Assembly: GCA_029213195.1 (NCBI GenBank)
Contig: JARGNI010000028.1
Coordinates: 1 to 51,298 of the forward strand
DNA from: Verrucomicrobiales bacterium
GTDB taxonomy: Bacteria; Verrucomicrobiota; Verrucomicrobiia; Verrucomicrobiales; DEV007
Direction: 5' to 3'
Length of the DNA: 51,298 nt
In this document: piece after piece, positions 8,300 through 51,195 of the stretch
How positions within the stretch are numbered: position 1 is the stretch's first letter
Layout: the number at the start of each line of letters is the position of its first letter
The notes under the pieces: generated by a model
Databases searched by the model: none
Seen by the model: only the letters and a program-made list of their open reading frames with translations
Told to the model about the DNA's origin: nothing
Position numbers and translations under genes: made by a program

Positions 8300-8668
8300 C
8301 CAAAACGCGACCAAGCGGGCGAGAAGGAAAGGGAAGGACAAACCCAGCGCCTTCATCTGGATGGAGCTGTAGTCGGTCGCTGCGAGGCCGGGGAGGAAGC
8401 GTAGATTTCCAACGAGACGCATTCTTTCGGAATCGTGGCCGATTCCGCTACAGGGTTTCAGCAGGCAGAAGGTGGTCAGACCTGGCAAGAGCTTTGCGCG
8501 GCACGAGAATCATACCCGTCCGATGGCCCGTGAATCGGCGATCTTTCTGCATGGATTCAGCAGATTTTTGCAACTTCTTCTACGAACCGCCCGGCCTCAA
8601 GGGCTCGGAAACCCGGCTGCCATTGCAAAAGTACTAGCCAAGTCGGGGTTCTTCCCCAGAATGGATGG
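8300..8668 (+). other. Intergenic stretch containing a hairpin repeat
   Basis: No gene is supported in these 369 bases. They carry the CTGTAG-bounded repeat described separately (8367-8453). The last 100 bases before the SASA esterase gene probably hold its promoter, though no clear -35/-10 pair stands out. Confidence 0.5.
8367..8453. repeat. CTGTAG-bounded hairpin repeat
   Basis: The unit is bounded by CTGTAG (8367-8372) and its inverse CTACAG (8448-8453). Next to the right boundary is a perfect 8-bp hairpin, CGGAATCG (8428-8435), loop TGGC, CGATTCCG (8440-8447). Next to the left boundary is an imperfect hairpin, CGGTC/GGCCG. Read on the minus strand, the right boundary CTGTAG plus CGGAATCG is identical to 23975-23988. 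It looks like a dispersed intergenic element. Confidence 0.6.
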
Positions 8669-10189: not shown

Positions 10190-10292
10190 GTCGAATCCAC
10201 GATCCCGCCCACTCTCGACTCTCTTTCGCGTGTCCCGAGAGCCGCCATCAAGCCGAGAGTGGCGTTGCTTCTCGAAAGGGAACTTTCTATGA

Positions 10293-10298
10293 GGGAGG
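10293..10298 (+). promoter_or_regulatory. Shine-Dalgarno site that fixes the start of the FG-GAP gene
   Basis: GGGAGG lies five bases before the ATG at 10304. It selects that start over the in-frame ATGs at 10259 and 10289, which lack a comparable site. Confidence 0.7.
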
Positions 10299-10303
10299 CA
10301 GTG

Positions 10304-24647: not shown

Positions 24648-24715
24648 TCGTAAAAAGGGATTCAAGGGTATCAGGTTCCGGGGCAACAAACCCCAGCCCA
24701 CTCTATTTGAGACGT

Positions 24716-26107: not shown

Positions 26108-26132
26108 GGAATTTCTGCAAGAGAAGGTTCGT

Positions 26133-31774: not shown

Positions 31775-33316
31775 ATGAAAACCTTTCTCTCCCTTGCCCT
31801 TGTCTTGCTTGCCTTCGTTCCCTGCTTCGCAGACAAGCGTCCCAACATCCTCTTCATCATCGTCGACGACCAGTCCCCCCTCGACCTCAATATCTATCGC
31901 CCCGACTCCAAGCAGGAGACGCCCCACATCGATCGTCTCGCCGCGGAAGGGATGGTCCTCGACGCGGCTCATCATATGGGCTCTTTCTCCGGAGCCGTCT
32001 GCACGCCCTCCCGCCACATGGTCATGTGCGGACGAACGGTCTGGCATCTCCCCATCGCCCCGAAAGCAATGGAAACCTGCCCTCCTGAAGTCATCGACAA
32101 TGTCATGGCTGAGGTCTTCAACCGCGCTGGCTACGACACGATGCGCACCTGCAAGCGGGGCAACAGCTACCGGGGTGCCAACGAAAAGTTCACCGTCGTG
32201 CACGATGCGACCAAGCGCGGTGGCACTCCCGAAACAGGAAGTGCCTGGCATGGCGAACGAGTCCTCGAATATCTCAACGAACGTTCCTCGAACAAGGACG
32301 AAGACCCCTTTCTCATCTACTTCGGCTTTTCCCATCCCCACGATGTCCGAGATGGCACCCCAGAGCTTCTGGCAAAATACGAGGCGACGAATCACACCGA
32401 CAAGAACAGCCTCCCCAAAGAGCGTGATGGCCAGCCCGTTCTTCCCAACAACTGGCTCCCGGCCCACCCCTTTCATCACGGCCACCCTGGCCTGCGCGAT
32501 GAGGTCAGCGTAAGGGGCGTCTGGGAAAATCGTGATCCCGCGACGATCCGCAATGAGCTCGGGCGAGAGTATGCCTGCAACGAGTACATCGATATCCAGA
32601 TCGGCCGGGTGCTCGCGAAACTTGAGGAGATGGGGGAACTCGACAACACCTACATTTTCTACACCGCCGACCATGGAATGGCGATCGGCCGCCACGGGCT
32701 GCAGGGGAAACAGAATCTCTACGAACACACCTGGAAGGTTCCTTTCGTCGTGAAGGGCCCCGGGATCAAGGCAGGCTCACGAGCCCCTGGAAACATCTAT
32801 CTCCTCGATGTCCTCTCGACAATGTGTGATCTCACCGGAGTCGACATCCCGAAAACGAATGAAGGAATCAGCTTCAAACCGGTGCTCCTGGGAGAAAAGG
32901 AAGTCACCCGCGATGTTCTCTACGGAGTCTACAATGGCGGCACCAAGCCAGGAATGCGAAGCGTGAAGAAAGGAGACTGGAAGCTGATCAAATATGATGT
33001 GCTCGATGGAGAAGTGCGCGAAACCCAGTTGTTTCACCTGGGAGACAATCCCGATGAGTATCTCAAGGAACACCACGATCCTGCCGTCGCGAAATTGACC
33101 GGGGCCAAGCCCCAGCCTCACCAGGTGAATCTGGCCGGAGATCCGAAGCACGCCGAGAAGCTCGCCGAAATGGAAGCCCTTCTCCTCTCGGAAATGCGGA
33201 GATTGAATGATCCCTGGCGGCTCTGGGATCAGCCGGACGACGGTCTGACTCCTCCTGCCAGGAAGCCGAAGCCAGCGAAGAAAAACAAGCCGAAACCCAA
33301 GAAGCCCAAGGCCTGA
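31775..33316 (+). CDS. Exported formylglycine-dependent sulfatase
   Basis: The 513-residue protein has a Sec signal (MKTFLSLALVLLAFVPCFAD). The metal-binding start is RPNILFIIVDDQSP. The sulfatase signature is GAVCTPSRHMVMCGR, with Cys76 in C-x-P-S-R to be oxidised to formylglycine. Later blocks (IFYTADHGMAIGRHGLQGKQ, YLLDVLSTMCDLTG, MRSVKKGDWKLI) are complete, unlike the two remnants elsewhere. It probably removes sulfate esters from polysaccharide or glycans in the periplasm. The C-terminal 25 residues are almost only lysine and proline (PKPAKKNKPKPKKPKA), possibly a cell-surface or anion-binding tail. It follows the ThuA fusion by 115 bp. A strong terminator follows. Confidence 0.93.
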   Translation: MKTFLSLALVLLAFVPCFADKRPNILFIIVDDQSPLDLNIYRPDSKQETPHIDRLAAEGMVLDAAHHMGSFSGAVCTPSRHMVMCGRTVWHLPIAPKAMETCPPEVIDNVMAEVFNRAGYDTMRTCKRGNSYRGANEKFTVVHDATKRGGTPETGSAWHGERVLEYLNERSSNKDEDPFLIYFGFSHPHDVRDGTPELLAKYEATNHTDKNSLPKERDGQPVLPNNWLPAHPFHHGHPGLRDEVSVRGVWENRDPATIRNELGREYACNEYIDIQIGRVLAKLEEMGELDNTYIFYTADHGMAIGRHGLQGKQNLYEHTWKVPFVVKGPGIKAGSRAPGNIYLLDVLSTMCDLTGVDIPKTNEGISFKPVLLGEKEVTRDVLYGVYNGGTKPGMRSVKKGDWKLIKYDVLDGEVRETQLFHLGDNPDEYLKEHHDPAVAKLTGAKPQPHQVNLAGDPKHAEKLAEMEALLLSEMRRLNDPWRLWDQPDDGLTPPARKPKPAKKNKPKPKKPKA

Positions 33317-36845: not shown

Positions 36846-39659
36846 TCAGTCTTGTGGGGCACTCCTGCTCATGAGATATGCCACCAGATCGCGAACCGCT
36901 TCTTCCGACAGGGTGCGAAGGAGTCCTTCCGGCATCAACGAAATGGGCAGGGTCTCCTTCTTCGCAATCTCATCCCGACGAATCACGATCTGCTCCGCGG
37001 CCGACTGCACCGTGAGCGTTCGCTCATTCTCCTCCGGGACGACACCCGAAATCACTCGTCCATCCTCCAGGGTGAAAACGGTGAGTTGGTAGTCGACGGG
37101 GACGATATCGTTGGGATTGACCGTGTTCCCGAGAAGGTAGTCGAGATTGTGTCGGTCGCTCCCCGTGAGATCGGGCCCCAGCGCACCGCCCTCGCCATAC
37201 AGCTTGTGGCAGGCACTGCAGCTCTGCTGAAAAACAAGTCTTCCATTCGCCAGGTCGGCAGAGGCGATCCGATCACCGGTCAGGAACTGTTTCCACTTCT
37301 CGATCTCCCGCTGCTTCTCCTCTGGCGTGTCTCGAACTTCTCCCCAGGCCACGCGAAGCCTCTCCTGCAGACCCTGGTTTCCAAGGCTGAAAATCTGCCG
37401 CGCCTGGAAGGGACTGATCGCCGATCTAGGAATCTCGCCGCCCTCCACAGCAGAGAGCAATCTGCTCGCATGGGACGCGCGCGACACGAGGGTATCGATC
37501 GCTGCCGATCGGCGGGAGGGGTATCGCTTCCAACTCGCAATCACCTTGCCGGCGATCGAGTTCCCCTCGTAGTGGGCCAGTCCACGAACGGCTTCCGTAC
37601 CGAGGATCTTGTCATTCACCCACTTCTCGAGAAGCGGTTGCAGCTCGTCATCGGGCCGATCAAGAAGGTTCCTCAAGGCAGCGCGACGTGCACCGGGATC
37701 TGCCTCCCCATCCTTTGCCAACGCCAGGAGTTCCTCGCGCGCACGACCATCACCGAAGAGGACGGACAACTCGCGAACCTGGGATTGTCCAGAATCCGAC
37801 AAGTCCGATCCCAGGCTGGAAACGAACTTCTCCCAAGCTTTCGGTTGGGGCGCTTTTCCCCACCCCTTGAGCGCTTCAGCCAGGCCTGCCAGGACCACCT
37901 CGCGTAGCGGAAGGGCCTCCGCTTCCGCCGCCCTCGACAAGAGTTCGGTAACCGAGTCGGAATTGATCTCGAGACCTTCCCCAAGACGACGAGCGATCAG
38001 TCGGGTCACGACGGGAAGCTCGGACTTCAATGCCAGGGTGATCGCTTTGTCAGGATGATCCGGGACGGCGTCCGAGACCCCATACCAGATCATCAGCGAC
38101 TGCTGCCGATCGGAAATATCTTCCGGGAAACCTACCAGGGTCTCGGCGAGCGGAAAACGCTCTGCATGAGGCAAGCGCTGCAAGGCGGCTGCCAGTTCGA
38201 GGCGCACGAGGGGTCGGGGATTGGCCGTAGCGATCTGGTTCAGCGTGTTCCAGGTTTCCGGTTCTTCCGGGTGATCTTCGACGAGCCATCGGACAGCGAG
38301 AGCCTGCTGGCCCTCGTCGAGATCCTCTGCCATCGGATCCAAAGAAATGCCACGGGCGCGATTCGTCAGCCAGGTGGGACGCTCCACGCTGGGAGATCCC
38401 TTTTCCTCCCCCTCGTAGACGATCCGATAGATGCGCCCACTGGTTCGATGGATCCCGTCGTTGTCATGGCATTCGCCCGTATCGGACCAGTCATTCATCC
38501 AGACCTGCCCCTCCGGTCCCGTGATGAGATCGAGCCCACGAAACCAGGGATCCTCCATCATGAGAAAGTCCTCTCCATGACGGGCCACATACCCGCAACC
38601 CTCTCGCTCGAGATGTTCCATATTGATTCGCCTGCCATGGAGATTGCAGGTGAAGACCTTTCCACGATAGGCCTCGGGCCAGACCCCGCCCTCGTAGATC
38701 AGGCACCCCATGTGGGCATGACCACCGCCGAGATCGGAAGTCTCCCTGGTAATCCCCTTGCGAGCCTCATTCCACTTCTCGGCTCCGGTGTCCCAATGAT
38801 AGTGATCGGCTGTATGAGGAATGACCTCGTAGGCATGTGGGTTCAGATGAGCCCCGAACATGCGTTCGTAGTAGGCTCCGGGGATGGCATGCCAGAAATG
38901 CCCGATCACCGTGTTCGTGTAGAAAAGTTGCCCATTGCGATCCCAGTCCATCCCCCATGGGTTGGTCCCCCCATGGGAGAAGACTTCGAACTTCCTTTCC
39001 TCGGGATGAAACCTCCAGATCGAGCAATTGAGCGAGGTCCTCTGGCTTTCCGAAGACCCTGGCACTCCCACCAAAGACGTCGCCGTGATCCCGTGTCGTC
39101 CGTAGAGCCAGCCATCGGGCCCCCACTTGAGGCCATTCACGATATTGTGCCCGATATTCTCGGCATCGAAACCGCCGAGAACGACTTCCGGATCTCCATC
39201 GGCTACGAGGTCTCCATCCGCATCGGGAATAAAGAGCAACTCCGGGGCGCAGGTCGCCCAGACTCCCCCGGCCCCCACCGCGATACTGGTCAGCCGTTTT
39301 CCCTCATCCCAGAAGACCGTTCGCTGGTCCGCCTTTCCATCGCCATCGGTATCCTCGAGAACGAGGATACGATCTCGAAGCTCGAGGTCCCATCGCAGGG
39401 GTCTCTCGGCAAAGGTGTAGCATTCGGCCACCCAGAGGCGCCCCCGATCGTCGAAGCACATCGCGATGGGTTGCTGCACCTGGGGTTCCGAGGCAAAAAC
39501 CTCAAGCCGAAATCCCGGGGGAAGCTTCGCGGTTCGGGCGGCCTCCTCGGCAGGCATGGGAGCACTCCCCTCCGGCTCTGTATTGTAGGGCTCGGGGAAG
39601 TCGCTCGCGACGAGGTTTGCGGTGAGAAGAAGAAGCGAAAAGCTCCAGCGCGGAATCAT
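36846..39659 (-). CDS. PVC-type heme-binding dehydrogenase with HEAT repeats
   Basis: The 937-residue protein has a signal (MIPRWSFSLLLLTANLVASD); the start is ATG 39659. Residues about 30-430 are a sorbosone-dehydrogenase-like propeller (LPPGFRLEVFASEPQVQQPI, FDDRGRLWVAECY, GLKWGPDGWLYGRHG), as in the DUF7133 family. Residues about 450-800 look HEAT-like (LVRLELAAALQRL, ARRAALRNLLDRP). The C-terminus is a c-type cytochrome with CSACH (VFQQSCSACHKLYGEGGALG, LDYLLGNTVNPNDIVP), the PVC-type heme domain. It is the last gene of a minus-strand run with Gfo/Idh, DUF1552 and the TroA-fused cytochrome. Its substrate is unknown. Confidence 0.9.
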   Translation of the reverse strand: MIPRWSFSLLLLTANLVASDFPEPYNTEPEGSAPMPAEEAARTAKLPPGFRLEVFASEPQVQQPIAMCFDDRGRLWVAECYTFAERPLRWDLELRDRILVLEDTDGDGKADQRTVFWDEGKRLTSIAVGAGGVWATCAPELLFIPDADGDLVADGDPEVVLGGFDAENIGHNIVNGLKWGPDGWLYGRHGITATSLVGVPGSSESQRTSLNCSIWRFHPEERKFEVFSHGGTNPWGMDWDRNGQLFYTNTVIGHFWHAIPGAYYERMFGAHLNPHAYEVIPHTADHYHWDTGAEKWNEARKGITRETSDLGGGHAHMGCLIYEGGVWPEAYRGKVFTCNLHGRRINMEHLEREGCGYVARHGEDFLMMEDPWFRGLDLITGPEGQVWMNDWSDTGECHDNDGIHRTSGRIYRIVYEGEEKGSPSVERPTWLTNRARGISLDPMAEDLDEGQQALAVRWLVEDHPEEPETWNTLNQIATANPRPLVRLELAAALQRLPHAERFPLAETLVGFPEDISDRQQSLMIWYGVSDAVPDHPDKAITLALKSELPVVTRLIARRLGEGLEINSDSVTELLSRAAEAEALPLREVVLAGLAEALKGWGKAPQPKAWEKFVSSLGSDLSDSGQSQVRELSVLFGDGRAREELLALAKDGEADPGARRAALRNLLDRPDDELQPLLEKWVNDKILGTEAVRGLAHYEGNSIAGKVIASWKRYPSRRSAAIDTLVSRASHASRLLSAVEGGEIPRSAISPFQARQIFSLGNQGLQERLRVAWGEVRDTPEEKQREIEKWKQFLTGDRIASADLANGRLVFQQSCSACHKLYGEGGALGPDLTGSDRHNLDYLLGNTVNPNDIVPVDYQLTVFTLEDGRVISGVVPEENERTLTVQSAAEQIVIRRDEIAKKETLPISLMPEGLLRTLSEEAVRDLVAYLMSRSAPQD

Positions 39660-39690
39660 GACGGGGATCGTTCTCGATGAAAAAAATCTC

Positions 39691-41007
39691 TCAACCCCAC
39701 GAACGATTCTTCTCCTCGGTGAGGAGGTCGCTCGCTCCCTCATCGCTGATAATTGCCTCTTTGTCAGGATTCCACTGAAGAGGACGACCCACTCGAGCGG
39801 AGACCCAACCGAGGTGACCCGGAGTGATCGATCGATGACCGTTCGCTGCAGGAGCGACGGTTTCCGCCCGTGACTTCACCGAGTCGATGAAATTCCGCTG
39901 ATGCCCGGGAGAACGATACGCCTTCCAGTCCCCCGCTTCGAAATCCTTGGCCAGCCACTCCGCATTGGAAGCCTCGATCTTGCCTCGATCGACCCAGACC
40001 CATCCGTTCTCCCCGATCCACTTGACCCCTTTGCGGTGCGAAGTGGAAATCACGCCCTTTCGACCGTCCCCATATTCCGAGACGATTTCATACTGCACCG
40101 GTGTGTCGTAGACTTGGGTCGTGGGCCAGGTCCAGTTGCGGGATTCGACCCGAGTCGGTCCCGTGCTCTCATATCCCATTCCCCAATGGGCAATGTCATT
40201 GTGATGCCCGATCCAGTCCATGAGGTTTCCTCCTCCATAAGCCGTGTGCCAGCGCCACCAGCGATGATGCCGCGCTTTCATGTAGGGGAGTACCGAGCTC
40301 GGACCGCACCAGAGATCGTAGTCGAGTCCATCCGGGATTTCGAGCACCTCGGTGCTGCCCTGCGCTTCGGCGTGTCCCTCGGGGAGCCCAACCTCGAAGT
40401 GGGAGATTTTCCCGAGATGCCCGTTCCGAACGAGTTCCACCGCCTGGCGAAAGACCGATTCCGATCGTTGCTGAGAACCGACCTGGAAGATCGCTTCCTG
40501 CTTCGCGACCTCGGCCACGACCTGCTGGCCTTCGGCAAACCGGTGGGTCAACGGCTTTTCACAATAGACATCCAAGCCCTTCTCCAAAGCGGCCAGGGTA
40601 ATCGTCGCGTGCCAGTGATCCGGTGTCGCGATGAGCACCGCATCGAGATCATCCCGCTCGAGCATCTCCCGGAAATCGGAGTAGGCAGCACAATCCGTGT
40701 TGCCATATTTCTCATCCACCGCTGCCTTTCCGGGGATTCTTCCCAGAGCCCTTCCCTGTCCCCACTCCCGTTCGCGGTAGTGATGATCATGAACATCACA
40801 AACCGCGACTCCCTGGACGTCGGCGTGATTCAGGAAGGCCCCCATCACCCCGATTCCACGGTTGCCCAGCCCGATGTAGCCCATCGTCACACGATTGCTC
40901 GGAGCCGGTCGATCTCCCTTTCCGAGAACGGAACGGGGAATGATCGTGGGAAAGGAAAGGCCTGCCGCAGAGGCCGAGGAGAGAAAGCTACGTCGGGAAA
41001 TTGACAT
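39691..41007 (-). CDS. Tat-exported Gfo/Idh/MocA oxidoreductase
   Basis: The 438-residue protein starts at MSISRRSFLSSASAAGLSFP, a classic twin-arginine signal. The NAD(P)-binding Rossmann motif is VTMGYIGLGNRGIGVM (G-x-G-N-R-G). The second family motif is EKPLTH, and substrate-domain blocks follow (VGSQQRSESVFRQAVELVRN, HHRWWRWHTAYGGGNLMDW). Exported members of this family are frequent in PVC bacteria and probably act on sugars with bound cofactor. The gene lies 31 bp upstream of the heme dehydrogenase, so the two may couple sugar oxidation to heme; this is inference. Confidence 0.92.
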   Translation of the reverse strand: MSISRRSFLSSASAAGLSFPTIIPRSVLGKGDRPAPSNRVTMGYIGLGNRGIGVMGAFLNHADVQGVAVCDVHDHHYREREWGQGRALGRIPGKAAVDEKYGNTDCAAYSDFREMLERDDLDAVLIATPDHWHATITLAALEKGLDVYCEKPLTHRFAEGQQVVAEVAKQEAIFQVGSQQRSESVFRQAVELVRNGHLGKISHFEVGLPEGHAEAQGSTEVLEIPDGLDYDLWCGPSSVLPYMKARHHRWWRWHTAYGGGNLMDWIGHHNDIAHWGMGYESTGPTRVESRNWTWPTTQVYDTPVQYEIVSEYGDGRKGVISTSHRKGVKWIGENGWVWVDRGKIEASNAEWLAKDFEAGDWKAYRSPGHQRNFIDSVKSRAETVAPAANGHRSITPGHLGWVSARVGRPLQWNPDKEAIISDEGASDLLTEEKNRSWG

Positions 41008-41101
41008 GCCCTCAGTGTGCCGAATCGCGGCACGACGAAACAAGAGTTTTCCCGACGCAAAGCCGTCAAGTGAAGCCCGTCCGCAAATTCGCTGCTTTCG
41101 G

Positions 41102-42496
41102 TCAGATCTCGCGGAGCTTCGCATCTCCGCCCCGGATCGCTTTTCCGTTCAGGTTCATCTTGTCGAGAACGGAGCGGTGGAGCTTGGCGACCGGTTCGCC
41201 CTTCGCCCGAATGTGGCGATTTCCTCGAATCCGCCCACCGGCATTTCCGGCCAGGAGAATGGGGACATTGTTTCCCCCGTGAACCTGCCCCGTGCTGAGA
41301 TTCGTTCCCAGCATCACGACCGAGTTCTCGAGGACATTGGAGCCGCCTTCTTCCATGCTTTCCAGTCGCTTCAGGAAGTAGGCATACTGATCGACAAAGA
41401 ATCGATTGATAAGCGAAAATTTGACGAGGTTCGCCTTCTTGTTTCCGTGGTGAGAAATGGAGTGGTGGTTCCCATCGACACCATCGAGAAAGGACATGTT
41501 GCGACCATTCAAGCCATCCCCGAACATCAGGGTCGAGGCTCGGGTCGAATTGCTCCAGAACGCGAGTGCCATGACATCCATCATGAGTCGACCATGCTCG
41601 CGGTAGGGGATGTTCGGGGCCGCGCGATAGCTTCCGCCCCCGCCCTCCTTGACCGACTTCCCGATTCGACTCCCAGTTTTCTTGATCTCGCTCATGATCT
41701 CCGGGGTGATGACCAGGCCATTGCTCGCCGCGCGAAGAAAGGTGATGCGCTCCTCGACATCCCGGACTGCCGTAAAGTACTCGTCAAGCTTCTGCTGATC
41801 CGACTTGCCCAACCGCTTTTGCAAAGACTTGGCATCTTCGAGAACGGCATCGATGACACTTTTGTCAGGATGAGGTCTCGTCGGCCCCTGCCGCCCGCCC
41901 GAAGAGGTCACCCGCGCTCCTTTGAACAATCGGTCGAAGGCCCGCATCGGATTGATCTCGTGAGGCACCGGGGTCGCCGCCGACTTCCACGACACGAAGC
42001 TGGTGTAGATATGACTGTGCCCGCTCATCGAGACGCCACTTCTCGGAGTATGCAAGCCAAGCTCCAGGGTCGGCAACACCGATTCTTTCTTCGCGGCATT
42101 TCCGATGATTTGATCGAGACTGGGATTCCCCACGTTGACCTCGTTGGCCTTTGCCGTCCGCTTCGGATTCTGCCCGGTCAAGAAAGCCGCAGTGCCGGCA
42201 GCATGGCCGCCTACCGCATTGTTCATCCCGGTGATCACATTCAGATAAGGCTCCAGCCCAGCGAGAGGCTGAAGACTGGGAGGAAGATTCGAGAGGCTGG
42301 ACCCCTTGGGAGTAAATCGACTGTGGTCGACTCCGTTCGGCATGAAGAAACCCGCAAACCGAACCGGGGAAACGCCCGCAGCCGCGTTCGCCCGCCCCAT
42401 CGGGATCATCGCCTCGAGAAAGGGAAGTGTCATCGTCACGCCGACACCGCGAAGTGCGGTTCGCCGAGAAATTTGCCAGGTTTTCGAGTGACTCAT
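41102..42496 (-). CDS. Tat-exported DUF1552 protein
   Basis: The 464-residue protein starts at MSHSKTWQISRRTALRGVGV with a twin-arginine signal. The family hallmark H-x-x-S-H-H is present as NHHSISHHGNK. Other blocks are RFAGFFMPNGVDHSRF and VITGMNNAVGGHAAGTAAFL. DUF1552 proteins pair with DUF1592-family cytochromes in PVC bacteria; their activity is not known. The ATG overlaps the stop of the upstream gene by four bases (42493-42496), indicating translational coupling. Confidence 0.93.
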   Translation of the reverse strand: MSHSKTWQISRRTALRGVGVTMTLPFLEAMIPMGRANAAAGVSPVRFAGFFMPNGVDHSRFTPKGSSLSNLPPSLQPLAGLEPYLNVITGMNNAVGGHAAGTAAFLTGQNPKRTAKANEVNVGNPSLDQIIGNAAKKESVLPTLELGLHTPRSGVSMSGHSHIYTSFVSWKSAATPVPHEINPMRAFDRLFKGARVTSSGGRQGPTRPHPDKSVIDAVLEDAKSLQKRLGKSDQQKLDEYFTAVRDVEERITFLRAASNGLVITPEIMSEIKKTGSRIGKSVKEGGGGSYRAAPNIPYREHGRLMMDVMALAFWSNSTRASTLMFGDGLNGRNMSFLDGVDGNHHSISHHGNKKANLVKFSLINRFFVDQYAYFLKRLESMEEGGSNVLENSVVMLGTNLSTGQVHGGNNVPILLAGNAGGRIRGNRHIRAKGEPVAKLHRSVLDKMNLNGKAIRGGDAKLREI

Positions 42497-44985
42497 GGAG
42501 ACTTGGATTTCTGGGGGTGATAGTCGTCGTTGCGCCGATAGCGGAAAGGGTAACTCAAGGCGACTCGTGAAAAGGCAGTCCGGATGCTCCCGTTTTCCTT
42601 CACGACCTCTTTCGTGATGTTCTCGATGACCTGCCGATCATACGGAGTCAACTCCCGACCGAGGGCGTAGGACAACATTTTCGACACCATATTACGAGCA
42701 AATAGTTCACGATCCTTCATCAGGTTGGCCTTCATCTGGGCAGGTGAAGAAAACTCCGTTCCGTCCGGCATCGTCCCCGCGACATCGAGCGGCTGGCCGT
42801 TCTGGCGGGTCCGGAATCGACCGATCGCATCGAAGCTCTCGAGTCCGAATCCGATCGGGTCGATCAACTCGTGGCATGAGCGACAACTTTCATTCTCCCG
42901 GTGCTCGACGAGGGCTTCCCGGAAAGTCTGGTTCTTCAGCTCACGATCGTCGTCGGGGAGTTGTTCCACGTCCATGGGAGGGTTGGGGGGTGGCGTGCCC
43001 AGGATCTGCTCGAGGACATAGCTCCCGCGAACCGCGGGACTGCTTCGGAGCGGCAACGACGTGGCGGTAAGCACACTTCCCATTCCGAGCACGCCTCCGC
43101 GGTTTCGATCCGTCAACGTCACCTTTCGAAACTCGCGCCCCGTCACTCCGGGGATCCCGTAGTGACGAGCCAGGGTATCGTTGAGAAAAGTGAAATCGCT
43201 GTCGAGCAGGGCATAGGCACTGCCATTGGAGGAAATGAGATACTGGAAATACTCCGACGACTCTTTGTACATTGCGATGCGAAGGGCGAAGGTGAACTCG
43301 GGATAGCGCTTCGCATCTGGATTCGCGCGAGAACGCAGGAGCTCCCATCCGAACCACTGTCCGGCGAAATGCATCGATAGCGCATCGGACTTCGGATCCT
43401 GGAGCATTCGATCGACCTGGGCCTGGATCACCTTGAGATCCTGGAGACGACCTTCTGAAGCCAGCTTGAAAAGCTCGGCGTCCGGCATCGAAGACCAGAG
43501 AAAATAGGAGAGTCGACTCGCAAAGGAAAACTGATCCACGAGATAGGCACTCTTGCCCGGTTTCTCGACCTCCGTTCGATACAGAAAATTGGGAGAAAGG
43601 AGAATCGCGAGCAATGGTGCTTTCATCGATTCCTCGAAGGACTTCTTCTTCGCCCGCTGCCCCTGGAAAAGCGAAACGAGCCGCTCCAGTTCCGGCTTGG
43701 GCACGGGACGGCGCCAGGCAAGCGAAGCCCAGCGATTCAGGATCGTTCTTGCTGCCGCCCTGTCCTTCAGTTCAGGACCGGGTTGAACAAAGAGGTATCG
43801 ATTGCGCGCCACAAAATTCCCATAGACCGCCTGCACGACTTCACCGGCGGCCTCGGTGTAGTTTTCCATGAGCAACGAAGGCAGGAACAAGGCATCGGCA
43901 TTGTTGTCGAAACCGGCTTCTCCTCCCCCGTCCTCCGGAAACTGATCGGCAGGACGCAGGCGGAGCCCAAAGAGATCGCGAATCGTGTAGTTGTATTCAT
44001 TCTTGTTGAGACGGCGGATCGTGGTCCGGCCGGGATCGCTCCCCATCTCCCCCTCATCCCAGCTCGTGATCAATTCCTCGATCCACGAAAGCAGCTGGTC
44101 CTGTTCTTCCGCATCCGGGCGCTCTTTTCGTTTGTGGGGAGGCATCTGCCCCAACTCGATCTGGGCCCGGACCGACTCCCAGAGATCCGGATTCATCTTC
44201 GCGGAAGCGCTCGTGAGAAAGGAATCGAAATTGACCTCCCCTTCCTCGGTATCGCTGTCGTGGCATTCGATGCAATAGCGATCGAGGAGGGGAACGATGA
44301 CCGCCTCATAGTGAGGCAGGTTGGTCGCGGCAATCTCTTCGGTCTTCTCCGATTCGATGCGACTCTTCAACTCGATCCGGTTCGACTCGAGAACGGAGAA
44401 GAAATCTCCCTGCGCGGGACGAATTCGACCCGTGGGAAGAAAGAGCGTAGATCCTTTCTCCTCCGGCCACTCCTTCTGAACCTCCAGAAGACGAGTTTTC
44501 AGGGTCTCGAAATTCGATCGCACCTGGGTCGAATCGGGTTCGATGCGGGTCAGGGCGAGAGCGATCTGATGAAGCAACGCCACCGAGGTTTCGGGAGATC
44601 GCGCTCCATCGAAACGCTTCTCCTTGGGCAGGGTCACGACACGCACCTTGCCGCCCCGGAGCTTCTCCACCCAGCCCGGTCGGTCTCGTTCCGAAACGAG
44701 AAGGAAGTCCACTTGGCGCGCCGCTTCGACCTCCTTCGGTGACGGCTCCCACTTGCCAGGATCGACTCCGGCAGGGATCGGATACACCACTCGAAAATCG
44801 TCTCCCGCCAGCTGATACGCCAGATTGGCGATCGCGTAGTTGGCTCCGATGACCGTCTTCGGGCGATCCGATGCCGAACTCGCCGGATCGAGATCTTTTT
44901 CCTCCGAAGTGCAACCCACGAGAACAAACCCCACCGCGAAAAGCGGGAGGCGTCCGAAAACGAGAGATACCGTTCGAGAGATCAT
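42493..44985 (-). CDS. Lipoprotein: degenerate TroA/ZnuA-like domain fused to DUF1592-family cytochrome
   Basis: The 830-residue protein begins MISRTVSLVFGRLPLFAVGF with the lipobox LVGC at Cys25. Residues about 43-170 resemble the metal-binding substrate-binding proteins of zinc/manganese ABC transporters: VIGANYAIANLAYQLAGDDF, VVYPIPAGVDPGKWEPSPKE, FLLVSERDRPGWVEKL. The family's metal-binding His residues are absent: GKWEPSP stands where PHxWEPSP is usual, and the DPHVWLDP-type block is missing. A c-type heme motif CIECH (238-242) follows. Then come the PSD blocks DUF1587, 1595, 1592, 1588 and 1585 (ESCRSCHELIDPIGFGLESF, LSYALGRELTPYDRQVIENI). The gene heads a coupled run with DUF1552. Confidence 0.8.
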   Translation of the reverse strand: MISRTVSLVFGRLPLFAVGFVLVGCTSEEKDLDPASSASDRPKTVIGANYAIANLAYQLAGDDFRVVYPIPAGVDPGKWEPSPKEVEAARQVDFLLVSERDRPGWVEKLRGGKVRVVTLPKEKRFDGARSPETSVALLHQIALALTRIEPDSTQVRSNFETLKTRLLEVQKEWPEEKGSTLFLPTGRIRPAQGDFFSVLESNRIELKSRIESEKTEEIAATNLPHYEAVIVPLLDRYCIECHDSDTEEGEVNFDSFLTSASAKMNPDLWESVRAQIELGQMPPHKRKERPDAEEQDQLLSWIEELITSWDEGEMGSDPGRTTIRRLNKNEYNYTIRDLFGLRLRPADQFPEDGGGEAGFDNNADALFLPSLLMENYTEAAGEVVQAVYGNFVARNRYLFVQPGPELKDRAAARTILNRWASLAWRRPVPKPELERLVSLFQGQRAKKKSFEESMKAPLLAILLSPNFLYRTEVEKPGKSAYLVDQFSFASRLSYFLWSSMPDAELFKLASEGRLQDLKVIQAQVDRMLQDPKSDALSMHFAGQWFGWELLRSRANPDAKRYPEFTFALRIAMYKESSEYFQYLISSNGSAYALLDSDFTFLNDTLARHYGIPGVTGREFRKVTLTDRNRGGVLGMGSVLTATSLPLRSSPAVRGSYVLEQILGTPPPNPPMDVEQLPDDDRELKNQTFREALVEHRENESCRSCHELIDPIGFGLESFDAIGRFRTRQNGQPLDVAGTMPDGTEFSSPAQMKANLMKDRELFARNMVSKMLSYALGRELTPYDRQVIENITKEVVKENGSIRTAFSRVALSYPFRYRRNDDYHPQKSKSP

Positions 44986-45047
44986 GGCCAGGGAGGGAGC
45001 TACCTATACCGAACTTCCCTGGAATCTGTCGAGTCTATCGCGGCTCC

Positions 45048-46154
45048 TTATTTTCCCTCTTCCCGAAGCCAGCGCTCGAAGAACGAATAGATGACTTCAT
45101 TCGATTCCGGATTCGGACCGTGTTCCGGACGATTGTGCATCGCGACCCGATCCTCGAATCCCAGCAGGCGATTCACTTCCACGGCGTGATTCAGCGCTTT
45201 CCATCGAGAAGGCGGATCCTCGCTCCCTCCGGAAACGAGGAACGGTCGCGGTGCCATGAGCGCATGGAGCTCGTGAAGATCCCTTCCCGCCTTCCGCAAC
45301 TCCGGGTAAAGCCCTCGCGCCGGATTTTCCTCCGACGGGAGCCCTCGCTGTCGCCATGGTTTCGGATGCCACCCAAGATACCAGGGTTCCCAGTAATTCA
45401 CACTGGGTCGAGTATCGAAGACGATCCCGGGATCCGACCAGGCAGCACAGGCAAAGCGATCGTAGAGGCAGGAGGCGAACATCGCCCATTTCCCACCGAA
45501 GGAATGCCCCACGATCCCGATTCGGGACTCGTCGACCTCGGGACGATCCGCAAGAACCTGAAAGGCGTTCGCCGCCGCGTAACCCAGCATCGAGAGCGGC
45601 TGCACCCGGACGTCGTTCTCCGATGGCCAGTAGAGGGAGTAGGCCTTCCTCGCCGTGGCTTCCGTAGTGCCGATCGACAAAGTCACGAAACCTCTTTTCG
45701 TGAGTTGCAACGCAAAGTCTCGATTCTCCTTCCCCTCGCCGATCGCCGTTTCAGGTTCGTAGTAGACCGTCACGACCGCGGGCCGTTTTTCTCCTGCGAT
45801 GCCATTGGGAACGAGAAGATACGCCGTCGTCTTTTCCTTCGGCGTCCAGAGGAATCGAATCGTGTGCTTCGTGAACCCGTCGCGTGGCTCCGTTCGAAGA
45901 ATCTCCACTTCCGGATCGGTGATCACCTTCGGCCACTCTCCGAGAAGATCGGTCCACTGCCTGAAAATCTCGGCACGGCGATTCTCCCAGCCCTCGGATG
46001 TCGTCACCCGAGAGCCATTTTCGAAGACGAGGGGCGAGCGAAAATCCCCCAGATCGTTCTCGTATGCGGGAGGCGCCTCGGTCCACCCGCCCTTCTCATC
46101 CGCATGGAGAAACGCGAGGCCACCGATCACCATCCCTAAGAACCACTTCCTCAT
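45048..46154 (-). CDS. Exported alpha/beta hydrolase, possible carbohydrate esterase
   Basis: The 368-residue protein starts at MRKWFLGMVIGGLAFLHADE (a signal); an upstream extension of 36 codons is not export-like. The nucleophile elbow is GHSFGG with Ser218. Asp in GGSEDPPSRW and His in RPEHGPNPES complete a plausible triad. The middle (YWPSENDVRVQPLSMLGYAA) resembles acetyl-xylan-esterase/glucuronoyl-esterase-like enzymes of polysaccharide utilisation. Substrate is unknown. It is divergent from the SIMPL gene (170 bp). Confidence 0.82.
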   Translation of the reverse strand: MRKWFLGMVIGGLAFLHADEKGGWTEAPPAYENDLGDFRSPLVFENGSRVTTSEGWENRRAEIFRQWTDLLGEWPKVITDPEVEILRTEPRDGFTKHTIRFLWTPKEKTTAYLLVPNGIAGEKRPAVVTVYYEPETAIGEGKENRDFALQLTKRGFVTLSIGTTEATARKAYSLYWPSENDVRVQPLSMLGYAAANAFQVLADRPEVDESRIGIVGHSFGGKWAMFASCLYDRFACAAWSDPGIVFDTRPSVNYWEPWYLGWHPKPWRQRGLPSEENPARGLYPELRKAGRDLHELHALMAPRPFLVSGGSEDPPSRWKALNHAVEVNRLLGFEDRVAMHNRPEHGPNPESNEVIYSFFERWLREEGK

Positions 46155-46324
46155 CCACCAGAGAAAACCAGAAATCTTCTTCACAGGGAAGCACGCGATC
46201 ACCGGATACCGATCAGGCAATAGGGTTGCATGGCCCACCTGACCCTGTTGAATCCCTTCCAACTCCGTGATGGCAAGGAGTTAAGGCTTTCTATTGGTTT
46301 CCTTTTCTGACTACTCTCTTTTCC

Positions 46325-47044
46325 ATGAAAGAGGGTCGCTACCTATTTTTTTCCGCCGTGGCCATTGCCATTGGTATCGGCGCCGCCGGACATTTCATCG
46401 GCGACACCATCTATCGATCGAAAATCGGAATGAACACGGCGCAGGCCAAAGGTCTTGCGGAGCGGAAGGTCAAGGCCAACCTCGGGACCTGGTCCGTGCG
46501 GTTTTCGGTCACCGGGAAAACCGCGGAAGAAGTCCCTGGTCTTTACGTGACCGCAGAACGGCAACAGGAAGAACTGATCAAGGAACTGAAAGCCAATGGG
46601 TTCGAAGACCCCGAAATCACTCCCGGCCTGATCGGGTACTCGAAGCGAGAGTATCGCGATGACGATCACAATCTCGTGGATGAAATCCACACGCTTTCCG
46701 CTTCCGTCGAACTGCGGACCGAAGACGTCGGAAAAATCGCTCCCGCCCGAAAAAAAATCAATCGGCTCATCGCCGAAGGGATCGATCTCTCCAACGATTC
46801 ACCGAGGTATTTCTACACCAAGCTCAACGAGATCAAACCGGCCATGCTCAAGGAAGCCGCCGAGAATGCGCGAATCGCCGCTGCCGAGTTTGCTGAAAAT
46901 GCCAAGGTCAAAGTCGGCAAGATCCGGACCGCAACCCAGGGCGCTTTCTTTATCGAAGACGATGGGCAATCCGGTGGCGACACTCGCTCGGTCGACAAAA
47001 ACGTGCGCGTCGTGACGACCGTCGATTTCTTTCTCATCGACTAG
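46325..47044 (+). CDS. SIMPL-domain membrane-anchored protein
   Basis: The 239-residue protein has one N-terminal membrane segment (FFSAVAIAIGIGAAGHFIG). The remainder matches SIMPL (DUF541) proteins: GLAERKVKANLGTWSVRFSV (with the variation on 'VxGxGxVxxxPD'), then ERQQEELIKELKANGFEDPE and a C-terminal VRVVTTVDFFLID. The family forms oligomeric periplasmic structures; its role is unclear. It has no cotranscribed partner. Confidence 0.85.
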   Translation: MKEGRYLFFSAVAIAIGIGAAGHFIGDTIYRSKIGMNTAQAKGLAERKVKANLGTWSVRFSVTGKTAEEVPGLYVTAERQQEELIKELKANGFEDPEITPGLIGYSKREYRDDDHNLVDEIHTLSASVELRTEDVGKIAPARKKINRLIAEGIDLSNDSPRYFYTKLNEIKPAMLKEAAENARIAAAEFAENAKVKVGKIRTATQGAFFIEDDGQSGGDTRSVDKNVRVVTTVDFFLID

Positions 47045-47065
47045 CCCCTCCCTACACGGAGTCAC

Positions 47066-48442
47066 TCACGCGAGGATCGCCTCGGCGACCGTGCCGTGGA
47101 CATCGGTCAGTCGGAAGTCTCGGCCTGCATGTCGGAATGTCAGGGTCTCGTGGTTCAACCCGAGGAGATGCAGGATCGTGGCGTGGAGATCATGGACATG
47201 CATCTTGTCCCGCTCGGCATAGTAGCCGTAATCGTCGGTAGCGCCGTAGGCCCTCCCCCCTTTGACTCCGCCTCCCGCCATCCAGACGGTGAAACCGTGG
47301 GGATTGTGATCGCGACCATTTCCGCCCTGGGCCGTCGGGGTGCGCCCGAACTCGCCTCCCCAGATCACGAGGGTGTCTTCGAGCATCCCGCGTGACTTGA
47401 GGTCCTTCAGCAGGCCGGCGATGGGCTTGTCGACTTCGGCGGCATTCTTGGTGTGGCCCTGGTAGAGATTGGAATGCTGATCCCACTGCACCTCGCTATC
47501 GGAGTGAGTGACCTGGACAAAGCGAACCCCACGCTCGCAGAAGCGGCGGGCGAGGAGACACTGTCGGCCGAAGTCCTCCGTGACTGGATCGTCGACTCCG
47601 TAGAGCTTCTGGGTCGCCGCCGATTCTCCCGAGAGGTCCTGGGCCTCCGGCATCGAGGTCTGCATGCGATAGGCCAGTTCGAAGGAACCGAGCCGGGCAT
47701 TCATCGCCTCCACTTCCGGATTTTCGCGAACGCTTTGTGCATTCAGCTTGCCGAGGAAGTCGAGTTGCTTCCGCTGGTCGGAAGAAATCGAGGCAGAAGG
47801 AGTGATGTGTTTCACCTTCGCTTCTCGCGAGGAAGCACTTGCCGTCCCCATTGGGGTGCCCTGGCAATACTGGGGAAGAAACGCAGAGCCCCAGTTGTTG
47901 ACCCCACCATGGGCGAGAGTCGGGCAGATCGTGACGAACGAAGGAAGATTGCGATTCTCGCTTCCCAGCCCATAGACGATCCACGACCCCATGCTCGGGC
48001 GGACAAAGGTGTCGCTCCCGGTATGCAACTTCAGCATCGCACCTCCGTGGGCCGGATTGGTGCCATGGACCCCGCGTAGGATACAGAGATCATCGATGCA
48101 TTGGGCGACATGGGGAAAAAGATCACTCACCGGCAGACCGCTTTCGCCGTAGCGATGAAATTGCCAGGGCGACTTGAGGAGGTTACCCTGCTTCGCGAAG
48201 GTGACACGCGGCAATTCGAACGGAGGCGGCTTGCCATGATCCCGATCGAGGAGGGGCTTGGGGTCGAACGTGTCGATATGCGAGGGCCCACCTTTCATGA
48301 AGAGAAAGATGACCCGTTTCGCCCTCGCCGGAAAATGAGACTGGCCGGCTCCATCGGAGGCGAGCAGCGAATGGAACGCCACCTGGCCGAAGCCGAGGGC
48401 TGCGGTCCCGAGAAATTGACGTCGTTGGAGAATCGGGCTCAC
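47066..48442 (-). CDS. DUF1501 protein, second copy
   Basis: The 458-residue protein probably starts at the GTG at 48442, whose GTGA overlaps the TGA of the upstream gene by four bases. A GTG farther upstream (48496) would add 18 residues inside that gene. It begins SPILQRRQFLGTAALGFGQV, a Tat-type leader. DUF1501 blocks: VIFLFMKGGPSHIDTFDPKP, VIWGGEFGRTPTAQGGN, GRDHNPHGFTVWMAGGGVKG, FRLTDVHGTVAEAILA. It is a paralogue of 24716-26107. Confidence 0.92.
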   Translation of the reverse strand: MSPILQRRQFLGTAALGFGQVAFHSLLASDGAGQSHFPARAKRVIFLFMKGGPSHIDTFDPKPLLDRDHGKPPPFELPRVTFAKQGNLLKSPWQFHRYGESGLPVSDLFPHVAQCIDDLCILRGVHGTNPAHGGAMLKLHTGSDTFVRPSMGSWIVYGLGSENRNLPSFVTICPTLAHGGVNNWGSAFLPQYCQGTPMGTASASSREAKVKHITPSASISSDQRKQLDFLGKLNAQSVRENPEVEAMNARLGSFELAYRMQTSMPEAQDLSGESAATQKLYGVDDPVTEDFGRQCLLARRFCERGVRFVQVTHSDSEVQWDQHSNLYQGHTKNAAEVDKPIAGLLKDLKSRGMLEDTLVIWGGEFGRTPTAQGGNGRDHNPHGFTVWMAGGGVKGGRAYGATDDYGYYAERDKMHVHDLHATILHLLGLNHETLTFRHAGRDFRLTDVHGTVAEAILA

Positions 48443-51195
48443 TGGAGATACACGAATTGGTTGGAGGCGAGGAGGCTCTGGCAGAAGAGGTTCCACTGGT
48501 GAGGAGAATCCGGAGCCTCCGCGAGAAACTCGATCGCCAGGTCCCTTTCACCGGCTGCAGGGAGTCGTCCAAAAGCGAGCTGCCAGGCGAGATCGACCCG
48601 CTCTTCGGTCGACTCGGCAGCTCCGAGAATACGGGATGCAAACGCAGCGGAGCTGTCGGTCATGAGAGGAGAGTTCATGAGAAGAAGTGCCTGCGGAGCG
48701 ATGACCGTGGAAGCCCGGTTCCCCGTCGGCATGGTCGGGTCCGGGTAGTCGAAGAGATGCAGCCAGTCGTAGAGATGATTCCGCACGACGGGGAGAAAGG
48801 CGGTCCGACGCAGCGAGTCATAGGAGGTGTGGTCTTTCGAAGTGTGATTGAACACCATCTGGCGATTCCGAAGCGGGATGGACTTCCCACCGCTTTCACG
48901 ATCCAGGCGACCCGAAACGTGAAGAATGGCATCTCGAATCGCCTCCGCCTCCAGTCGACGAACCGGAAAATGGCTCAACAATCGATTCTCGGGATCCACC
49001 TCGCTTCGGATTCCCGGGAGCGGATCCGAGGACAGGCGGTAGGTATCCGAAGTCATGATGAGTCGATTGAGCTTCTTGATACTCCAACCATTCTCGACAA
49101 ACCATCCCGCCATCCAGTCGAGCAACTCGGGATGACTGGGGCGCTCCCCCAGAACTCCGAAATTTTCCGTCGTCGAGACGAGGCCCTGACCAAAGTGCCA
49201 ACGCCAGACCCGGTTCACGATGACCCTCGCGGTAAGAGGATTCGAAGGGTCGGCCATCCAACGGGCCAACTCGAGCCGACCGCTGGCATCGCTCGGAAAA
49301 CGGACGTCCTTTTCCCCGAAAACCGCAGGGAGGGCTCGAGGCACTTCCTCCCCGGGACTGAGATGATTTCCACGAATATGAATGGGCAGGGTGTCCTCGA
49401 TCTTCTCGCCGTCGGCAATCCCCATCGCCGAGGAATAGTCGGGAGCCTCCGTCTCGAGCAAGCGAGCCTCCTCGCTGAGCCGGTGATACTCGGCCAAATC
49501 GATCTCGGAGAACGCGTGTTCGGGCTTGGCCGGAACCGCAAGAAGCCCCGAGTTGTCGAAGAGCGCGGCCCGGTAGGGCTCCAATTCCGGATCGGGGAGC
49601 GTCTTGGCCTTGCTGTTTTCTTTCTGCAGTTGGGAGAAAGCGAGAACCGCCGTCTCGAACTTCTCCTCGTAGAATTCTCGCATCCCGGATTGGTCTCCCT
49701 TCTCGCGATATTTCCACCACGTTTGAAAGACCTTGTCGCCGTGACTGTTGTCGAGATGACGACGCGCATGATAGAGGATGCGGGGATGCAGATCGTATTT
49801 CCCGGCCACTTCGGAAACGGTTGCAAGAGTAGCGGAGGCATCGAACTCGAAACTGGCCACGAGGTAATCGACCGCCTTCGATCTCGCTTCGCCCCGCAAG
49901 GCTCCAATGACCTTGTTCTTGTGGGTGCGGGCCTTTTTCTTGGCCTCGGCAATCGCCTCGTCGATCGGCTTGAGCCGCTCCTTTTCTTCCTCGGATGAAA
50001 AATCGTGCTCATACCAGTGCTTGATCGCACCGGTGTTTGATTCCGCAAAATTCCTGGAATTCCGGAAAATCGCGGCGAGCGAGAAATAGTCCGATTGGAG
50101 AATGGGATCGAACTTGTGATCGTGACAACGGGCACAACCGAGAGTGAGTCCGAGAAAGGCTTTTCCCATCGTATCGAGTTGCTCATCGATCACGTCCATC
50201 TCGAGCTTTTCTCGATCCGGCTCGGCAAGCACTCTTGCCCCGAGGGCGAGAAATCCAGTCGCGACGAGAGTGTCCCGATCCGGGTTCTCGATCAGGTCTC
50301 CGGCAATCTGCTCGATGAGGAACTGGTCGAAGGGCTTGTCTTCGTTGAAGGAAGAAATGACATAGTCCCGATACCGCCAGGCATTGGCGAAGGCCAGATT
50401 CTCATCGAGCCCGTTGGAATCCGCATAGCGCGCCACGTCGAGCCAGTGTCGTCCCCAGCGGACAGCGTAGTCGGGCGATGCGAGTAGCCGATCCACGACA
50501 CGAGTCTCCGCGTCCGGAGTCTCATCCGCGAGGAAGGCTTCGATTTCTCCCGGGGTCGGCGGCAGACCCGTGAGATCGAAAGTCGCTCGTCTCAGCCAGG
50601 TTTCCTTTGAAGCGGGAGTGGTTTGCTTCAGGGACTTCTCCGCCAAACGGGCCTGAATGAAATGATCGACGGGATGCACTCCCGGGGGAACGACCGATTT
50701 TTGAAGCGGACGAAACGACCAGAAGTTTCGCCCCTCCTCCGGATCCATGCCGGTAGGACCCCGCAAGTCATCCTCCACTTCCGAACGAGGATCGGGAGCC
50801 CCCATCTCGATCCAGGTCTCCAGGTCCCTGATCTCCGACTCCGAGAGAGGAGATTTCGGGGGCATCTGGAGATCGCGATTCTGATACCGAACCGCTTCGA
50901 TGAGAAGACTCTCCTCGGGCTTACCGGACACGATGATCCTCTCCCCGTGATCCCCCCCGCGACGAAACGCGGAAGGCGAATGCATGGAAAGCCCTCCTTT
51001 GACATCCTTCTCCGTCGCGTCGTGACAGCGGAAGCAATTCTCCGCCAAGAGAGGGCGGATTTTCTTCTCGAAGAACTCGGCCTGGTCAGGAGAAACCTCG
51101 GTCGCGAAGCCCGGGACCACACCGAGTAGGCACGACATCAGGGCAAAAACCCAAAGGCTTCGTCTCCCACCAGCAACATTATCTCCCCAATCCAC
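48439..51195 (-). CDS. PSCyt1-DUF1549-DUF1553 exported cytochrome
   Basis: The 918-residue protein starts at a GTG at 51195, giving a leader with core SLWVFALMSCLLGVVPGFA. An ATG at 51138 is an alternative but would shorten the positive leader. Residues about 35-120 are the N-terminal heme domain (CFRCH at 54-58, MPPKSPLSESEIRDLETWIE). DUF1549 (about 150-370) has TFDLTGLPPTPGEIEAFL, GRHWLDVARYADSNGLDENL and CARCHDHKFDPI. DUF1553 (about 640-880) has NPLTARVIVNRVWRWHFGQG and LGERPSHPELLDWM. It is the full-length counterpart of the gene at 26133 and is coupled to DUF1501. Confidence 0.92.
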   Translation of the reverse strand: MDWGDNVAGGRRSLWVFALMSCLLGVVPGFATEVSPDQAEFFEKKIRPLLAENCFRCHDATEKDVKGGLSMHSPSAFRRGGDHGERIIVSGKPEESLLIEAVRYQNRDLQMPPKSPLSESEIRDLETWIEMGAPDPRSEVEDDLRGPTGMDPEEGRNFWSFRPLQKSVVPPGVHPVDHFIQARLAEKSLKQTTPASKETWLRRATFDLTGLPPTPGEIEAFLADETPDAETRVVDRLLASPDYAVRWGRHWLDVARYADSNGLDENLAFANAWRYRDYVISSFNEDKPFDQFLIEQIAGDLIENPDRDTLVATGFLALGARVLAEPDREKLEMDVIDEQLDTMGKAFLGLTLGCARCHDHKFDPILQSDYFSLAAIFRNSRNFAESNTGAIKHWYEHDFSSEEEKERLKPIDEAIAEAKKKARTHKNKVIGALRGEARSKAVDYLVASFEFDASATLATVSEVAGKYDLHPRILYHARRHLDNSHGDKVFQTWWKYREKGDQSGMREFYEEKFETAVLAFSQLQKENSKAKTLPDPELEPYRAALFDNSGLLAVPAKPEHAFSEIDLAEYHRLSEEARLLETEAPDYSSAMGIADGEKIEDTLPIHIRGNHLSPGEEVPRALPAVFGEKDVRFPSDASGRLELARWMADPSNPLTARVIVNRVWRWHFGQGLVSTTENFGVLGERPSHPELLDWMAGWFVENGWSIKKLNRLIMTSDTYRLSSDPLPGIRSEVDPENRLLSHFPVRRLEAEAIRDAILHVSGRLDRESGGKSIPLRNRQMVFNHTSKDHTSYDSLRRTAFLPVVRNHLYDWLHLFDYPDPTMPTGNRASTVIAPQALLLMNSPLMTDSSAAFASRILGAAESTEERVDLAWQLAFGRLPAAGERDLAIEFLAEAPDSPHQWNLFCQSLLASNQFVYLQ

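Follow-up and report, generated by a model that had tools for sequence, protein, structure and literature searches.

Gene and protein at the locus

The stretch analyzed here, called the window, comprises 51,298 nucleotides of contig JARGNI010000028.1 from a Verrucomicrobiales bacterium (assembly GCA_029213195.1). On its reverse strand lies a gene for a predicted 830-residue lipoprotein, in which a remnant related to the binding proteins of the TroA/ZnuA family precedes a c-type cytochrome of the DUF1592 kind. The features of this gene and of its downstream partner are as follows.

42493..44985 (-): whole gene for an 830-aa predicted lipoprotein, TroA-like remnant plus DUF1592-type c-cytochrome (open reading frame (ORF) with ATG start; Pfam)
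44911..44985 (-): signal peptide, with LVGC as a lipobox-like motif and Cys25 (read from the sequence by hydropathy and a simple lipobox pattern)
44461..44865 (-): residues ~41-175, N-lobe of a TroA/ZnuA-type binding protein with the start of its linker helix; Gly at ligand site H1, H2 and the His loop missing (Pfam, hidden Markov model (HMM), VIA-align, alignment)
44350..44454 (-): residues ~178-212, putative remnant of that binding protein's C-terminal strand and helix (alignments and a weak collinear HMM piece, 3.7 bits)
44134..44274 (-): PSCyt1 c-type heme domain, residues 238-284, CIECH at 238-242 (Pfam)
43825..44016 (-): PSD3/DUF1587, residues 324-387 (Pfam)
43570..43752 (-): PSD5/DUF1595, residues 412-472 (Pfam)
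43153..43536 (-): PSD4/DUF1592, residues 484-611 (Pfam)
42805..43101 (-): PSCyt3/DUF1588, residues 629-727, with the second CxxCH, CRSCH (Pfam; sequence)
42544..42765 (-): PSD2/DUF1585, residues 741-814 (Pfam)
41102..42496 (-): DUF1552 (HXXSHH) partner gene, its start overlapping the cytochrome stop (ATGA) (ORF; Pfam)

All six cytochrome blocks scored above the Pfam cut-off and stand in the usual order, PSCyt1-PSD3-PSD5-PSD4-PSCyt3-PSD2, which bears out an earlier note on this DNA that had read a cytochrome with DUF1587, DUF1595, DUF1592, DUF1588 and DUF1585 blocks. The CIECH and CRSCH motifs are putative heme-attachment sites. A DUF1552 gene lies downstream at six of six testable loci in a clade of seven cytochromes introduced below (Pfam); at L106, the contig ends with the cytochrome gene. 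No ABC family turned up among nine window genes scanned with Pfam around the cytochrome, and the rest of the genome was not searched for a permease.

The N-terminal domain had been described in the earlier note as TroA/ZnuA-like over residues ~43-170. Pfam, an HMM and fold matches all agree with this, and the predicted fold spans residues ~41-180. The Pfam ZnuA family (PF01297, curated cut-off 29 bits) matched residues 49-176 with 30.5 bits in the whole protein and 34.7 bits when residues 1-222 were scanned alone. In a sequence search of the PDB with residues 1-222, the first 25 of 35 matches (to E 0.078) were named metal ABC-transporter binding proteins or lipoproteins, the best being manganese/zinc lipoproteins at E 2.1e-6. 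An HMM of 35 free relatives gave the window protein 58.0 bits with its signal peptide and 52.6 bits without. The likeness to ZnuA exceeds chance, because the best of 500 shuffles of the mature stretch reached only 2.6 bits on the same HMM. An AlphaFold model of the N-terminus, built from four sequences, had a mean pLDDT of 59.5, with N-lobe blocks at ~55-80 and the C-terminal part below 50. Foldseek returned 98 matches to this model at E <= 0.001 (best E 1.5e-9), and the 50 shown were, to judge by their descriptions, TroA-family binding proteins. With VIA-align, the modeled domain matched the ZnuA-like domain of AdcA with Z 15.0 over 140 residues (rmsd 2.9). The structural comparison that the earlier note had proposed thus found similarity to TroA-type proteins. 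A model of the L106 domain likewise retrieved TroA-family proteins first (best E 1.2e-6), with pLDDT below 50 in its C-lobe.

Three collinear pieces of the HMM occur in the window protein, at residues 16-108 (49.0 bits), 140-174 (1.8 bits) and 185-208 (3.7 bits). The C-terminal piece, LPTGRIRPAQGDFFSVLESN, aligns with DPCGN-TPENGDFMTVMTAN of L101/L033. Because residues 185-208 match the end of a binding protein, the domain would combine the N-lobe and part of the linker helix with the C-terminal end; the core of the C-lobe appears to be deleted, with both the N-lobe and the extreme C-terminus kept. Consequently, the description of the domain as the first half of a binding protein stands for the N-lobe, but it does not stand as only the first half, since residues ~178-212 match the extreme C-terminus. 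Against a C-terminal remnant, a MAFFT alignment of the four fused domains alone placed the window piece away from the C-terminus. Its C-terminal placement comes from alignments with free relatives and from the HMM, in which the piece is weak by itself. Compared with TroA/ZnuA proteins such as the AdcA N-domain (7jj8) and PsaA (1psz), the window protein has in common the predicted fold of N-lobe plus linker helix, the lipoprotein signal and the order of the pieces, but it lacks the metal ligands and the C-lobe core and is joined to a cytochrome. The family has two lobes connected by a long helix, and the window domain has the N-lobe and helix only; L106 and L108 align over both lobes.

Relatives and distribution of the fusion

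A whole-protein search of 141 genomes of the order found at least three near homologues, with 59-61% identity from residue 205-225 on, and 74 genomes of the family added one more at 60% identity (G167). Scanning one genome per species, across 84,980 species, with two peptide patterns gave six loci, whose records read Verrucomicrobiales, Verrucomicrobia or, for L110, Roseibacillus. Three of the six have a binding-protein-like N-terminus: L105, L106 (on a contig of G167) and L108 (on a contig of G073), the window genome belonging to the family of G073 and G167. The earlier note had suggested a search for DUF1592 proteins with the same N-terminus, and these three, all in Verrucomicrobiales, are the ones found besides the window. 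At L107, L109 and L110, the N-terminus is a CxxC zinc-ribbon-like stretch with a strongly hydrophobic segment (family matches below cut-off). In G112 and G137 (the L109 and L107 loci), the sister cytochrome is immediately preceded by a second, small zinc-ribbon-like ORF.

When 386 genomes of the order were searched with a profile of the clade, 59 had a match at E <= 1e-200, and the fusion was seen in four of these: the window genome, G073, G167 and G555, with the L105 protein at the G555 locus. Among the matches listed for a fused-domain profile run on 384 genomes of the class, no additional fusion was credible. The N-terminus as query had a match in 35 of 56 genomes, its own included; these matches look like free binding proteins because, the window apart, no frame among those listed exceeded 469 aa. 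The ZnuA-like extension is uncommon among the genomes searched. The count of four fusions is a minimum, since the long-framed DUF1592 paralogues read were six in number and one search covered only the matches listed. A 954-aa ORF with a ZnuA match in G313 (L096, G313:C2) was rejected as a claimable fusion, its frame running through a masked stretch (X); the locus holds a binding protein of the free subfamily described below that runs into this stretch. Searches of open-access literature turned up no account of a fusion between ZnuA and DUF1592, in line with the earlier note, which knew of none.

DUF1592 proteins outside the window clade occasionally have N-terminal additions as well. For example, L133 (G000:C81), a DUF1592 paralogue in the window genome (G000), also has a domain added before PSCyt1. 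This addition, ~500 residues with a weak Palm_thioest match below cut-off and the look of an alpha/beta-hydrolase by eye, is not ZnuA-like; L133 and L134 represent one hydrolase-like extension. Among the other paralogues, L136 has an acidic, mostly helical-looking N-terminal stretch with no Pfam match, the long frame of L135 includes a further cytochrome, DUF6797 and, weakly matched, NHL, and L137 and L138 look by eye like open frames without coding. Pfam gave no ZnuA-like extension in L133, L135 and L136, the paralogues scanned. The statement that DUF1592 proteins begin with only a signal and the heme domain holds for the 26 nearest outgroup loci (L038-L063), in which the first CxxCH lies 29-105 codons from the first possible start, compared with 237-382 in the clade of seven; it fails for some paralogues, such as L133. 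The window protein is thus unlike those 26, which have a short signal region and then the heme domain, while it has in common with the DUF1592-type cytochromes of the Planctomycetes-Verrucomicrobia-Chlamydiae (PVC) group the full domain order, two CxxCH motifs and the downstream DUF1552 gene. Accessory domains of the CBM, Big_2, WD40 and F5_F8 types are given for PSCyt proteins in the Fig. 8 legend of PMC5615132, which likewise documents extra domains and does not name a ZnuA-like one.

L133 (G000:C81:181300-187000) and L134 (G073:C227) lie on DNA shared by genomes of two genera, with 99.9% identity over 5267 bases; this reflects either a recent transfer or a misbinned contig. The possibility of foreign contigs in one bin bears on whether the fusion itself could be a chimeric assembly or a false join of a binding-protein gene and a cytochrome gene, as does the marking of five of the six related locus records as metagenome-assembled genomes. 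However, the same architecture is found in three genera (G000; G073 and G167; G555) at 57-71% core identity and with an open frame through the joint, and G073 does not share the window contig itself (63.6% over matching DNA). An artefact is exceedingly improbable, and the fusion reported in the earlier note is real, a single 830-aa ORF with the same architecture at three other loci.

Metal site and likely donor

Four positions (His, His, His and Glu) are taken by us to be the metal ligands of the TroA/ZnuA family. The full set (H1, H2, H3 and Glu) occurs in every one of the 16 canonical homologues, which are the ORFs with 'DPH' among 20 ORFs outside a free, non-canonical subfamily. At these sites, the alignment gives Gly and three gaps for the window, T, gap, S and D for L106, and A, gap, S and T for L108; L105 is too diverged for alignment at most of them. 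The ligand histidines are indeed gone from the window domain, as the earlier note had it, with H1 replaced by Gly and H2 and H3 in gaps. However, the implied loss from a normal site finds no such agreement, since the likely donor subfamily was already without H1 and H2.

This subfamily was represented by 35 free members, with identical ORFs counted once, and some of them are lipoproteins. Their motifs are NYPLxYF, DPAFWxP, HxHGxxxxHSH, TTWxD, SHPxYQY and WEGxP. H1 is Ala in 33/35 and H2 is Thr in 31/35, with H3 and Glu kept in 35/35, and the four histidines of the His-rich loop (HxHG...HxH) are present in 35, 35, 34 and 35 of the 35. HMM columns 139, 141, 149, 219 and 267 are His, His, His, His and Glu in all free members, and gaps or other residues in L106 and L108. 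To judge from these alignments, the fused proteins have lost the His-rich loop, H3 and Glu besides H1 and H2.

Without signal peptides, the HMM of the free subfamily gave 52.6 bits for the window, 53.5 for L108, 44.2 for L106 and 16.7 for L105, and that of the canonical set 33.4, 19.9, 12.0 and 3.5 bits, respectively; the best of 500 shuffles of each protein reached at most 6.4 bits. The free members were gathered with window or fused-domain queries, which tilts this comparison towards the free subfamily. A partial control, an HMM of the 28 free members found with the window query alone, gave 50.2 (window), 50.3 (L108), 42.1 (L106) and 16.2 bits (L105). On the PF01297 profile, L106 and L108 fell below the cut-off and L105 had no match. 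The donor likely resembled the non-canonical free subfamily of the same order, not canonical ZnuA: this subfamily outscores the canonical members for all four fused domains and has the C-terminal GDFxxVMxxN piece in common with the window, but it stands alone and keeps the His loop, H3 and Glu that the fused domains lack. A free member is present in the window genome (L103:4785-5738, G000:C49), G073 (two), G167 and G506 (L110); none was found in G505 (L105), and G112 and G137 gave weak, other matches. An ABC ATPase lies in the ~1.5-kb flanks of 5/35 free-subfamily loci (the window genome's own and 34 others) compared with 6/16 canonical ones; therefore, many free-subfamily members may be orphans.

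Seven columns are invariant across the four fused domains (A, W, P, L, L, P and L), and none is of ligand type, in an imperfect alignment. The earlier note had suggested that the module binds something other than free metal and had proposed a check for conserved substitute ligands. These columns support neither. Binding-protein folds can in general change ligands, and the cleft could present a sugar, a small organic molecule or heme to the cytochrome. A carbohydrate role has also been suggested for PSCyt genes (PMC5615132). However, half of the cleft, the C-lobe core, appears deleted in the window protein, and the invariant residues are those just named, which makes a switch of ligand quite unlikely. 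Even less probable is a residual metal chaperone that uses other residues to deliver metal to its HXXSHH partner or to the cytochrome itself. By its name, the donor family binds metal, the partner family is named after its HXXSHH motif, and zinc-ribbon-like repeats (below cut-offs) take the same place in the sister proteins, but the canonical and His-loop positions are lost and no conserved substitute ligand replaces them.

History, role and neighboring genes

In the core tree (34 rows, many outgroup rows entered untrimmed), the clade of seven had support of 100/100, the window with L105 100/96, L106 with L108 100/99, and the three zinc-ribbon-like proteins 100/99. The trees also included L065, which is truncated by its contig and has no readable N-terminus. 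With L129 added, a clade of eight was recovered at 100/100, with L129 beside window plus L105 (89/86), which then had 91/82. The N-terminus in this clade is binding-protein-like in four members, zinc-ribbon-like with a hydrophobic helix in three, and neither in L129. A tree of the binding-protein domain, from which L105 was left out, placed the window domain within the free subfamily and L106 and L108, as a pair, beyond it, on very long branches (4.51 for the window). A tree constrained to hold the three fused rows together was slightly better (p-AU 0.631 in the approximately unbiased test) and shows no clade either, and the domain tree was dropped as evidence for two origins. The domain may have been acquired in a single fusion and later lost or replaced, or in two separate fusions.

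The fused copies have diverged faster than their free counterparts. The window protein and L106 share 60.3% identity in the core and 22.2% in the fused domain (90 columns, the window being aligned over its first piece only and L105 only near its C-terminus), and the free binding proteins encoded by their two genomes share 44.3%. For two g20 genomes, identity is 71.0% in the core, 46% for the free proteins and 38% for the fused domain (318 positions). W82, P84 and W108 of the N-lobe are kept in 3/3 alignable fused rows. An open frame alone is no proof of selection on the domain, because a stop would kill the cytochrome.

A simple pattern finds a lipobox in the window protein (LVGC), L106 (LSGC) and L108 (FAGC). 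An anchor is thus predicted by lipobox in 3/4 fused proteins and by a transmembrane-like segment in 3/3 zinc-ribbon-like ones, 6/8 clade members in all, and these have no common ligand site; the lipobox survey covered 15 of the 34 rows. We lean, with modest confidence, towards a dead binding protein reused as the lipid anchor and spacer or docking module of a DUF1592 cytochrome. The product would be a c-type cytochrome of the PVC DUF1592 kind, anchored in the membrane as a lipoprotein. Its N-terminal domain would be a captured periplasmic metal-binding protein of the local, non-canonical ZnuA/TroA subfamily. The metal site would have been lost after capture, and in the window lineage most of the C-lobe would have been deleted as well. 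The domain would now serve as a lipid anchor and a folded spacer or docking surface, keeping the heme domains some way off the membrane and beside the DUF1552 protein encoded with them. Domain identity, the predicted N-lobe fold, the loss of ligand residues, the relatives and the gene order were computed; from them we infer that anchoring and spacing at the membrane are most likely the role. Of the functions raised in the earlier note, the anchoring of a partner, or simply of the protein itself, fits best.

Several points weigh against this reading. L105 has no clear lipobox, the unconstrained domain tree separates the three fused rows, and the tilt of the HMM comparison was only partly controlled. 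L129 is a relative with neither module; therefore, a module is not essential. The faster divergence could reflect a new function under positive selection. A pure spacer needs neither a fold nor two invariant Trp, so a specific contact may be selected. A rival reading is a docking adapter, in which metal binding was lost and a protein-protein surface kept to recruit a specific partner (e.g., DUF1552 or a membrane permease). The retained N-lobe Trp and Pro and the consistent DUF1552 neighbor would fit such an adapter. However, the DUF1552 gene also lies beside the three zinc-ribbon-like relatives without the domain, so a DUF1552 partner does not need it, and the window copy is without most of one lobe. 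We regard the docking adapter as possible but doubtful. Anchor and spacer are favored, with the adapter next, because the zinc-ribbon-like and most fused relatives share the predicted anchor and not a ligand site. A bolder version, which we consider rather unlikely, has a specific docking or sensing adapter couple the cytochrome and its DUF1552 partner to a membrane complex, as one of several swapped N-terminal adapters (TroA-like, or zinc-ribbon-like with a transmembrane helix) in one cytochrome clade. Under the favored reading of anchor and spacer, the captured N-terminal modules would tie the cytochrome of this clade to the membrane, suggesting a membrane-bound route for electrons, and the clade offers constructs for testing it. 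It would also be a case of a binding protein reused after loss of its ligand site, with two-lobed, truncated and missing forms within one clade.

Elsewhere in the window, long ORFs at 8597-11800 (1067 aa) and 24707-26458 (583 aa) had no Pfam match at E <= 0.001; their coding frame is not sure, because both overlap long opposite-strand ORFs. The ~14 kb at 36846-51195 hold three PVC cytochrome-type genes, for a TIGR02604/TIGR02603 protein, the DUF1592 fusion and a DUF1549/DUF1553 protein, together with DUF1552 and DUF1501 genes. In PMC5615132, PVC cytochromes are described as numerous, the functions of PSCyt genes as not known with carbohydrate metabolism suggested, and sulfatases as neighbors of PSCyt genes. 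A sulfatase gene at 31775-33316 of the window is in line with this.

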